Shown in pieces: positions 2,992 to 53,706 of a stretch of DNA of 64,000 nt (position 1 is its first letter; every line of letters begins with the position of its first letter). The notes below the pieces were generated by a model. That model saw only the letters and a program-made list of their open reading frames with translations. It had not been told where the DNA came from and did no database searches. The stretch covers positions 2,418,001-2,482,000 of the forward strand of contig NZ_CP026031.1 in NCBI RefSeq assembly GCF_003726095.1. Direction: 5' to 3'. The stretch comes from Niallia circulans (GTDB lineage Bacteria; Bacillota; Bacilli; Bacillales; Cytobacillaceae). Made by a program: the position numbers and the translations under genes.

Positions 2992-3293
2992 ATAAGGTTG
3001 GAACATAAATATTTCAATAACCATAACCTCAAACTATTATTCGTACACACTAATAACTATTCGTATAATGGTTTGGGGTTTTTATTTATTTTACGAAAGA
3101 AGGTTTGTGATAATCACCCGCAAACTGAATATACTTCGCTTTCCATGAAGTGAGCGCCATGCTCCTCGCGTCTTTAGTTTCTGCAGGAAGCAGACAGTGC
3201 ATCGTGTCTGTAGAGTAGTGAATTGGATTGGATTGGTGTTTCGCACTAAATTAGAGAGTATTCGTCATTATGCAATATATTTTGTCCGTCCTA
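2992..3293 (+). repeat. copy A of the palindromic intergenic repeat (internally deleted)
   Basis: About 300 bases matching both ends of copies B and C but lacking the middle. The left end (2997-3090) holds the terminator-like stem pairing AACCTCAAAC around 3024 with GTTTGGGGTT around 3071-3080, which probably also terminates the PBP transcript. Next comes the ATCACCCGCA...TTCGCTTTCCATG segment shared with B and C. The right end (about 3215-3290) shares GAATTGGATT, ACTAAATTAGAGA and TTCGTC with copy B and ends in a degraded TTTTGTCC terminus. Same orientation as copy B. Confidence 0.8.
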
Positions 3294-17373: not shown

Positions 17374-17886
17374 TTATTTTCTTTGATATTCCATTTGACC
17401 TAGAAGCAATTCAACAACATGTTCAAACATTGCTGTCCTATTAATCCTGCCGTTTGTGAAGATTCCTATAGCACCTTCTGTTGAGCGAACATTTTCTTTT
17501 TGGACATATTCATCCATAACCGGACCTAGTTCTCTTCCTGCAACTAGTTTTGTTTCAATTTCCTTTGGTAGCGGAATTCTTGCTCCACTAGCTATATAGG
17601 TGGTTCCATCCTTCCAAACAAGCGCTCCCCAATTAGTTAAAAAGAGAGTGTCATTTGTTCGGTGGACGCCTCCTTCCAAGCCAATCCCTATCTCGCCGGC
17701 CCCTTCCTGCAATGCAGCCTTCGCTCGGTTAACGGCCCCTTTGATCGTTTCCTCATCTGAAAATGGCTGTTCGCTTACCCCAGAGCTCACATTAAATGTA
17801 GCAAACTCTATAGCCGCATCTTTTTCTAAACAGTTTTTTACTGCTTTTACTTTTGCTTTATTATTGGTGCCAATACAAACTTTCAC
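17374..17886 (-). CDS. DUF84 family NTPase (inosine/xanthosine triphosphatase-like)
   Basis: Family of YjjX-like phosphatases thought to remove non-canonical nucleoside triphosphates (ITP/XTP). Typical N-terminus VCIGTNNKAKVKAV, then VSSGVSEQPFSDEETIKGA and the EIGIGLEGGV loop that holds catalytic acidic residues. Length 170, normal. Start is GTG 17886 with AGGAGTG 8 bases upstream. Immediately upstream lies the intergenic repeat copy B, so its promoter must lie in the short gap or within the repeat. Substrate is inferred from the family. Confidence 0.85.
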   Translation of the reverse strand: MKVCIGTNNKAKVKAVKNCLEKDAAIEFATFNVSSGVSEQPFSDEETIKGAVNRAKAALQEGAGEIGIGLEGGVHRTNDTLFLTNWGALVWKDGTTYIASGARIPLPKEIETKLVAGRELGPVMDEYVQKENVRSTEGAIGIFTNGRINRTAMFEHVVELLLGQMEYQRK

Positions 17887-17925
17887 TTTGCTTCACTCCT
17901 AATATCATGACAAAATAGTTTATAA

Positions 17926-18419
17926 AAAGAGAGTGGGACATAAGCATTTCAACCAAATCTAACCCCGAACAATTATACGTACACACTAAAAAAAATTCGT
18001 ATAATTGTTTGTGTTTTTTTATTATTTTAAGAAAAAAGGTATGTGGTAATCACCCGCAGCCTGAATACACTTCGCTTTCCATGGGGCGAGCGCCAAGCCT
18101 CCTCGTTCCTGCGGGGTCTTGGACTTTCTCGCAGCTCCCATAGGAGTCTCCGTGTATTCAGTCTGCTCCATTTATTTTCTTTTGAAAAAAACGTTGGAAC
18201 GAAATACTCTTTAAAAACGGAGTGAAATGGAGTGGAAGACACTCAACTCCTGCGGGAAATAGAGCAAAGCCTAAGACCCCACAGGCTTGCCGAGGAGGCT
18301 TAGGTTGCTCCCCGCGGAAAGGGAGTGTCTGTAACGCAATGGAACGAATTGGATTCACCACTAAATTAGAGATTGTTCGTCTTTATCCATTATTTATTTT
18401 GCTTTGTCCCACCCTCTTT
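17926..18419 (+). repeat. copy B of the palindromic intergenic repeat (full length, MITE-like)
   Basis: 494 bases bounded by terminal inverted repeats: AAAGAGAGTGGGACATAAGC at the left (from 17926) and the complement of TTTGTCCCACCCTCTTT at the right (to 18419), with one mismatch and one single-base indel. Inside are three stems. Stem 0 (about 17960-18015) pairs AACCCCGAACAATTATACG-type sequence with CGTATAATTG and ends in a T run. Stem 1 (about 18062-18160) is closed by CTGAATACAC / GTGTATTCAG. Stem 2 (about 18236-18330) is closed by GACACTC / GAGTGTC with AGCCTAAG / CTTAGG inside. Clearly more GC-rich than its surroundings. No transposase; reading frames within it are symmetric shadows of the palindromes. 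Confidence 0.9.
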
Positions 18420-18463
18420 GATTAAATTTTTTATATGCATTATTTTAAAAATAGTTTTGGTTA

Positions 18464-19537
18464 TTATTGATTTGCACGCAGTGTTTCGATGGTTGTATGA
18501 TCCGTTGTTTTTACTAATTTAGTTACCAGTTCTTTTGCTGCCGCATAATCATCGATGTGGATAATAGAAGCACTTGTATGAATATAACGTGAGCATATGC
18601 CAATAACAGCGCTAGGTACACCATTGTTTGAAATATGAACCTGTCCCGCATCCGTTCCGCCTGGTGAAATAAAGTACTGGTAGGCAATATTATTAGATTC
18701 CGCTGTATCTAAAATAAATTCTCTCATCCCTTTATGCATAACCATCGTGGCATCATAAATGCGTAACAATGCTCCTTTTCCAAGCTGACCAAATTGATTT
18801 TTATCACCAGAGGCATCATTTGCAGGACTTGCGTCTAAAGCATAAAATACATCTGGCTTAATCATATTAGCTGCAGTTCTAGCTCCTCTAAGACCTACTT
18901 CCTCTTGCACAGTAGCCCCAGAATACAAGATATTCGGAATCTCCTCTCCTTGAAGATTCTTTAACAATTCAATCGCTAAACCACAACCATAACGATTATC
19001 CCAGGCCTTTGCCATAATTTTCTTTTCATTAGCCATTGGCGTAAATGGACAAATTGGCACAATCATTTGACCAGGCTTAATCCCAATTTTCAATGCATCT
19101 TCCTTATCATCCGCTCCGATATCGATCAGCATATTTTTTATATCCATTGGTTTACTTCTTAATGCTTCGTCCAATAGATGTGGAGGAATCGAACCGATTA
19201 CCCCAGTAACAGGTCCTTTATTAGTTATAATCTGTACTCTTTGTGCTAAAAGGACCTGACTCCACCAGCCACCGATAGGCTGAAAACGAATCATTCCGTT
19301 ATCCGTGATTGCAGTAACCATAAAACCAACTTCATCCATATGTCCGGCAACCATAACAGTTGGTCCATTTTCCGTTCCTCTTTTCACCCCAAAAATACTG
19401 CCAAGGTTATCTTGCACGATTTCATTTGTATAAAGACTTAATTGTTCTTTCATAAATTTTCGAACTTGGTGTTCATTTCCAGCTACTCCCGGAAGTTCCG
19501 TTAATGTTCGAAACATATCTAATGTCTGTTGTTCCAT
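18464..19537 (-). CDS. ytoP: M42-family glutamyl aminopeptidase / endoglucanase-like (YtoP)
   Basis: Cytosolic tetrahedral aminopeptidase of the M42 group, dinuclear zinc or cobalt. Metal and catalytic motifs are present in order: [11 protein letters not shown] (first His ligand), [10 protein letters not shown] (bridging Asp), [10 protein letters not shown] (catalytic Glu pair), YALDASP and the final His in [10 protein letters not shown]. Length 357, normal. ATG 19537 follows AAAGGGG. It lies in the same order as B. subtilis ytoP, next to ytzB. Family-level call is firm; the exact peptide substrate is unknown. Confidence 0.92.
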
Positions 19538-37867: not shown

Positions 37868-38140
37868 AGTTGTTTTGACCAAAATAAAAAGCCGCTCATC
37901 CCAAATAGGGACGAGAGGCATTATGTATAATCTCCCGCGGTACCACCCACAATTAGTGAATAAATCACTCGCTTCATTATCCTTTAACGCAGGTGTACGG
38001 CAAGCATTACTAAAAGTTCACACTTGCAACTCAAAGGTGAGTTCAAGATGTTTTTGACTGACTTGCACCATCCGTCAGTTCTCTTCTTTCAAAAGGGCAT
38101 CTTTACTATTCCTTATCCTTGTTGATTACTTATATATGTT
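37868..38140 (-). promoter_or_regulatory. leucine T-box riboswitch of leuS
   Basis: The conserved T-box sequence GGGTGGTACCGCG reads on the minus strand at 37936-37948. The terminator (37891-37919, GCCGCTCATCCC / GGGACGAGAGGC followed by TTTTTATTTT) stands before leuS. Upstream are the long stem I and a GAACTC segment that could present a CUC leucine specifier codon; the exact specifier was not proved by folding. Uncharged tRNA-Leu is expected to stabilise the antiterminator. Confidence 0.93.
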
Positions 38141-46148: not shown

Positions 46149-46648
46149 AAATGAGGATGGGACAAAACAAAATATATATTGGATAAAGACGAACAATCTC
46201 TAATTCAGTGGTGAAACCAATTCGTTCCATTACACTACAGACACACGATGCGCCGGGGAGCAACCTAAGTCTCCTCGGCTAAAGCCTGTGGGGGCTTAGG
46301 CTTTGCTCTGCTTCCCGCAGGAGTCGAGTATCCTCCGTTCCATTTCACTCCTTTTTTAAAGCTTATTTAGTTTTTTAGCAAACTAAAATTACTAGAAAAA
46401 AACAGAGCAGACTGAATACACGTAGACTCCTATGGGAGCTGCGAGAAAGTCCAAGACCCCGCAGGAACGAGGAGACTTGGCGCTCGCCCCATGGAAAGCG
46501 AAGTGTATTCAGTCTGCGGGTGATTACCACAACCCTTTTTTCTTAAAATAAATAAAAACCCCCAAATAATTATACGAATATTTCCTAATATGCACGCATA
46601 ATTGTTCGGGGTTATATTGTGGGTTGAAATACTTATGTCTCACCCTTA
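46149..46648 (-). repeat. copy C of the palindromic intergenic repeat (full length, inverted)
   Basis: About 500 bases, the reverse complement of copy B in layout. The left terminus GAGGATGGGACAAAAC and the right terminus (complement AAGGGTGAGACATAAG) are inverted repeats. Stem 2 (about 46235-46330) contains AACCTAAG / CTTAGGCT and the CCCGCAGGAGTC arm. Stem 1 (about 46413-46520) is closed by CTGAATACAC / GTGTATTCAG. Stem 0 (about 46558-46615, AACCCCCAAATAATTATACG with CATAATTGTTCGGGGTT) lies next to ytpB. The right end stops within 3 bases of the ytpB stop codon and could terminate ytqB and ytpB. Confidence 0.9.
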
Positions 46649-53489: not shown

Positions 53490-53706
53490 AAAAACCTTTT
53501 CATTAGTGAAAAGGCTCCTAGTAAAATCAATTCGCACCTTTCACTCTTATCGTTCAAGGAAAAATTCCTTGCTTCAGGTTAGCACCTTTCCTAAGAGAAT
53601 GTCTGTCCCATTACATGTAAACATGAATGATTCAGTAATTTTCTTCACATAGTAGGTTGCTGGGTTTCATCGGGCCAGTCCCTCCACCAGCTCAGGATAA
53701 GAGAGT
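53490..53706 (-). promoter_or_regulatory. SAM-I (S-box) riboswitch of metK
   Basis: Minus strand reads CTCTTATC...GAGCTGGTGGAGGGACTGG, then CCCGATGAAACCCAGCAACC, the canonical S-box core. P1 closes with GATAAGAG at 53541-53550. The terminator CCTTTTCATTAGTGAAAAGG with a T run is at 53491-53514. High SAM should favour the terminator and shut metK off. Confidence 0.96.

Follow-up and report, generated by a model that had tools for sequence, protein, structure and literature searches.

The 494-bp repeat at positions 17926–18419 of the window (the whole 64,000-nucleotide stretch of the Niallia circulans genome analysed here) is very probably a MITE with IS1182-family, IS1272-like ends, which a transposase supplied in trans would insert at a hairpin, the stem-loop being lost and the element bringing in hairpins of its own. 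The original prediction of a non-autonomous mobile element is supported by the many copies present, by the match of their ends to those of transposase-bearing IS1182 elements and by 21 empty orthologous sites. Comparisons between genomes show that hairpins are replaced at gene ends, that this recurs, that the ends match those of IS1182 elements and that an autonomous IS behaves in a like manner; the identity of the mover as an IS1182 transposase, and its cleavage chemistry, we infer. The relevant features of the window are as follows.

17926–18419, plus strand: MITE copy B, 494 bp, with the element proper at about 17929–18416
17926–17940, plus strand: left terminal inverted repeat AAAGAGAGTGGGACA, an IS1182/IS1272-like end, matched on IS1182-family elements
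17968–18009, plus strand: subterminal stem AACAATTATACG...CGTATAATTGTT followed by a T-run, a putative terminator carried by the element
18061–18161, plus strand: palindrome P1, about 100 bp, closed by CTGAATACAC/GTGTATTCAG
18238–18329, plus strand: palindrome P2, 92 bp, closed by GACACTC/GAGTGTC
18405–18419, plus strand: right terminal inverted repeat TGTCCCACCCTCTTT
46150–46646, minus strand: MITE copy C, which repeats the layout of copy B; its ortholog in strain NBRC 13626 (L160) is a bare hairpin
about 2999–3284, plus strand: MITE copy A, shortened and diverged; the NBRC 13626 site is also occupied (L236)

The coordinates first assigned to copy B are correct, and the terminator-like stem and two long palindromes are found at the closures predicted for them, in a three-part layout that is seen again in copy C. 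The outer ends are near-perfect inverted matches (14/15 bases), but the 20-base length originally given to the terminal inverted repeats was generous, because only 15/20 bases match over that distance. Judged against the empty sites and the autonomous IS, the outermost AAA/TTT of copy B seem to be host bases at least in part, hence the slightly shorter extent given for the element proper. The arms of the terminator-like stem lie at 17968–17979 and 17998–18009, and P1 and the reverse complement of P2 are homologous. Folding of copy B is far more favourable than that of shuffled sequences (z of −10.87 and −9.39 for the two strands, with 0/100 shuffles as good). The element contains no listed ORF of at least 100 aa. 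It lies between two minus-strand ORFs, one of 170 aa and one of 357 aa, the latter with its 3′ end towards the element. Elsewhere in the window, an Rfam scan marks a T-box leader (37904–38128, minus strand) and a SAM riboswitch (53544–53703, minus strand).

The idea that the element supplies terminators or a structured RNA stands in part. For terminators the support is indirect: the element replaces terminator-like hairpins and has a stem with a T-run, but a simple consensus terminator scan did not flag the subterminal stem of copy B, because its loop of 18 is over the limit of the scan. A structured-RNA role finds no support in Rfam: for the element, scans of the window and of 17850–18500 gave no Rfam family at the gathering threshold, and only chance-level matches below it.

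A genome-wide search for further copies had been set beforehand as a test of the prediction, and many are present. The source genome (5,175,203 bases in one contig) contains at least 53 blast matches to copy B, a floor since scoring covered 40 of the 145 candidate places. About ten copies are near full length, and P2 is missing in some others; in c4252 and c1654 the tips of P1 and P2 are joined and the intervening part is lost, and two relatives have 491–493 bp at the site where the c308 copy measures 399 bp. The element is thus short and multi-copy and carries no transposase gene, as expected of a MITE. It departs from that class in the absence of a target site duplication, the target bases being gone at 15/16 clear empty sites; one copy, c1610, has a direct repeat. 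Around 32 copies the flanking genes, called mechanically as ORFs of at least 70 aa, some of the short ones possibly spurious, are convergent in 13 cases, co-oriented in 18, divergent in none and unplaceable in one (raw counts). Some part of the element is matched in at least 43 of 61 genomes, the source genome included, and often this is a palindrome only. A sister MITE, about 356 bp long, resembles the element at its ends and contains a P2-like palindrome:

G000:C1:388199-388554, 1988494-1988849, 3821777-3822133, 4832483-4832839 and 4955735-4956090: copies of the sister 356-bp MITE

Where testable (f388, f1988, f3821 and f4955), the sister element is likewise at hairpin sites.

The main result is the manner of landing, with removal of a host hairpin, which the original prediction did not include. 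It comes from relatives in which the site is empty, a comparison proposed with that prediction. The nearest named relative, Niallia circulans NBRC 13626 (G012/G061), has 99% identity in the neighbouring protein and 95–97% in flanking DNA. The flanks of 30 copies were searched, the copy B site being read from L041, and 28 copies were examined against relatives: the orthologous locus is empty for 21, also occupied in the nearest relative for five (c2817, copy A, f1221, f433 and c2155) and unalignable for two (c1896 and f4832). Left out of the count besides these two are c1841, c4375 and f1595, which have no usable ortholog, and c1985 and c1763, which were not searched. When a fixed hairpin score is centred on the projected insertion site, 16/21 empty sites are at or above the 95th percentile, and 13/21 at or above the 99th, of 1014 control positions; the controls step through these loci at 10-nt intervals and are not independent. 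Among the 16 sites that reach the 95th percentile, 15 have a projected target loss of 20–51 bp, with no duplication. The hairpin feet both fall 11 nt or less from the projected junctions in 14/16, the distance being larger at one end in c670 and c3709; in c670 the end of the element coincides with one arm of the host hairpin.

At the copy B site the relative (L041) has the hairpin AAAAGGTATCTC...GAGATACCTTTA in place of the element and, by this comparison, copy B is an insertion made after the split from NBRC 13626. The hairpin is common to two or three relatives at the sites of B, c3559, c670 and copy C, which indicates that the hairpin is the older state and the element derived. In relatives, the c3559 and c2057 sites are occupied by different copies in opposite orientation (L166; L165 and L175), and we take these to be separate insertions into the same terminator.

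The five empty sites that fall below the score are varied. Two (c917 and c1500) have a hairpin nearby, within a longer unaligned interval and at or near one junction only, f2404 has a weak inverted repeat, and c3467 has no hairpin, the copy there being without its left end. The fifth, c1610 (G000:C1:1610126-1610621 compared with L151), is aberrant: the relative's hairpin is kept but inverted beside the element, matching the reverse complement at 23/24 bases as against 17/24 for the direct sequence, and an 18-bp direct repeat has one member on each side of the element. At the c1500 site NBRC 13626 (L156) has a different 563-nt stretch in the same terminator, whose ends form an inverted repeat.

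The likely autonomous counterpart is found in other genomes. Inverted ends of the GAGGCTGGGACAWAAC type occur on IS1182-family elements of congeners and other Bacillales, and the MITE shares its ends with these autonomous elements (L211, L212, L214, L215 and L216, with L218 less alike), the likeness being limited to the ends. DUF772 transposases are present in 35/61 genomes, the source genome not among them, and six of 20 DUF772 regions have GGGACA-type ends (two each in G001 and G008, of the genus, one in G022, of the family, and one in G049, of the order). The partner elements are about 1.82–1.85 kb long with, by reading, a hairpin just inside the ends, and all four of the proteins scanned match the IS1182 model NF033551 at 433–441 bits (cut-off 270).

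Orthologous sites were compared for the G022 element because the flanks of the G001 and G008 elements are absent from the source genome and a partial ortholog, G004, is too diverged. The ends are present in 9/9 copies of the G022 IS examined, three of which could be aligned across the site in one congener genome. In all three the empty site has a terminator-like hairpin, exact at both junctions in one case, at the left junction in another and inside a diverged interval in the third. Stem-loop replacement, as expected of an IS1182/IS1272-like element, is therefore seen at 16/21 sites for the MITE and at 3/3 alignable sites for the IS.

An IS1182 partner inside the source genome was considered and rejected, as no such element with the MITE ends was found there. 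No IS1182 transposase with such ends was found in that genome by a full-protein search, which lacked a positive control, and the sole match to NF033551 is a sub-threshold relic of 35 residues in broken frames (G000:C1:4142609-4142713), itself without MITE ends. The genome is now without the enzyme, so that its copies may be stranded.

We propose that a transposase acting in trans would recognise the GAGGSTGGGACA ends of the MITE, together with a folded hairpin at the target, mostly at gene 3′ ends. The stem-loop of the target, about 20–50 bp, would be lost and the flanking A-tract and T-tract kept, accounting for the lack of a target duplication. The stem and T-run that the element carries, along with its long palindromes (one or two), would then probably restore or alter the stop of transcription at that place, so that the insertion is kept nearly neutral. 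The carried stem would on this model be a terminator that compensates for the hairpin removed.

A check for stem covariation, also set in advance as a test, gives different answers for the palindromes and the small stem. In copies from the source genome and relatives, P1 and P2 keep their pairing through two-sided changes, with seven pairs changed on both sides in P2 and four in P1; cells with two-sided change exceed those in all 500 shuffles (42 compared with 15.1 for P2, 23 compared with 10.8 for P1), the structures being taken from the same alignments and related sequences inflating counts other than pair types. The pairing is lost when the partner is slid. Further pair types are not above shuffles (P1 205, P2 426 of 500). 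In the small stem there is almost no two-sided change: one such pair is seen, a result reached by 96/500 shuffles, and the stem is thus without covariation support. The sets comprised 38/39, 30/31 and 31/34 sequences, those dropped being either split by an IS or heavily gapped. Small-stem variants show G-U versus A-C in 7 versus 2 pair columns, the corresponding figures being 9 and 9 for P1 and 8 and 9 for P2, a weak hint of selection on the small stem as plus-strand RNA.

The palindromes are themselves targets for a second element, of the IS3 family, whose OrfB matches NF033516 at 348.7 bits. It has six full copies, all within hairpins:

G000:C1:2057737-2059164, 432208-433635, 2156091-2157519, 916401-917828, 1596013-1597438 and 4840168-4841595: copies of the IS3-family element

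By flank reading, 5/6 are at the tips of P1- or P2-type palindromes of MITEs and 1/6 is in the stem of another hairpin. Inserts of 1.44 kb in two MITE copies had suggested this element as the autonomous form, which we reject: the inserts end in TG...CA, show 3-bp repeats and lie in the palindromes. At the f433 site NBRC 13626 (L243) has a palindrome with an apparent IS3-family remnant.

The process may, as a more tentative suggestion, be an exchange of hairpin for hairpin, in which the folded-out terminator is the target and both its feet are cut. Terminators would then form an exchangeable pool, the new hairpins would feed the loop-seeking IS3 element, and c1610 would be a failed exchange.

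Other explanations can be weighed against these data. The location at gene ends and the retained pairing of P1 and P2, with the tolerance of the small stem for G-U over A-C, could point to a terminator or structured RNA selected by the host and transmitted vertically, with losses in some relatives. We consider this highly improbable: the empty sites disfavour it, outgroups share the same simple hairpin at several of them, marking the element as derived, near-identical copies stand at unrelated loci, and the terminators at the c3559 and c2057 sites hold unrelated copies in opposite orientation in different relatives. Somewhat less remote, but still unlikely, is that the element is mobile and yet owes its spread, and the loss of hairpins, to template switching or recombination at hairpins, its IS-like ends being a coincidence or a relic. 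The lack of a transposase with matching ends in the source genome favours this, as do the slippage-like deletions that join palindrome tips in c4252 and c1654 and the inverted hairpin and repeat of c1610. The copies, however, terminate at identical bases, and the autonomous IS1182 element with matching ends replaces hairpins too, as has been published for IS1272; we prefer insertion by an IS1182-type transposase.

Where the palindromes came from is a separate matter. P1 and P2 could be a REP-like repeat with its own spread that was captured by the MITE, an origin that we think possible without favouring it. The homology of P1 to the reverse complement of P2 is in keeping with it, many relatives match the palindrome only, and a pattern search of 20 palindrome regions from relatives found no IS1182-like end in 12. 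The same search, however, found both ends in three regions (G039, G053 and G002) and one end in five, in members of several families within the order, and the MITE ends, not the palindromes, bound all 16 clear empty sites.

Landing at gene-end hairpins would allow mobile DNA to spread without breaking genes. It suggests a safe-harbour logic for MITEs, in which every gene end offers a site and the terminator-like stem pays for the one removed. With the 21 empty sites, the features recognised by the transposase can be tested directly, and so can an effect of the terminator swap on the expression of neighbouring genes.

Several known repeats invite comparison. The bcr repeats of Bacillus cereus, which occur in Bacillaceae, are multi-copy and intergenic like the MITE. 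REP/BIME sequences with TnpA-REP consist of a 20–40 bp repeat with an associated Y1 transposase, a size unlike that of the 494-bp MITE. Much closer are IS1272 and TnSha1 of staphylococci, which target hairpins or terminators and delete the stem-loop without duplication, one terminator being hit repeatedly, independently and in both orientations (PMC4923244, PMC5678879). Their published targets are 21–85 bp (PMC5678879), compared with 20–51 bp in 15/16 cases for the MITE. Both encode a transposase, and TnSha1 also fabI, whereas the MITE has neither, being about 0.5 kb with several hairpins. MITEs of 160 and 169 bp in Methanosarcina acetivorans, assigned to ISMac2 (IS1182), are likewise short with an IS1182-family partner, and the table passage that lists them makes no mention of hairpin replacement (PMC3852290). 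The IS3-family elements IS1397, ISKpn1 and ISPsy8 insert into palindromic REP sequences of enterobacteria and Pseudomonas (PMC1525189). The element described here is similar in being of the IS3 family and within palindromes; it differs in that the palindromes it occupies are part of an IS1182-type MITE and the host is a Firmicute. We found no description of an IS1182-type MITE that replaces terminators in the open-licence literature and, as far as our searches of it reach, a multi-copy MITE that combines hairpin replacement, a hairpin cargo and use as the target of a second IS is new. Hairpin-replacing transposition, described for two elements of staphylococci, would thereby also take in a multi-copy MITE of Niallia and, judged by the ends, other Bacillales.
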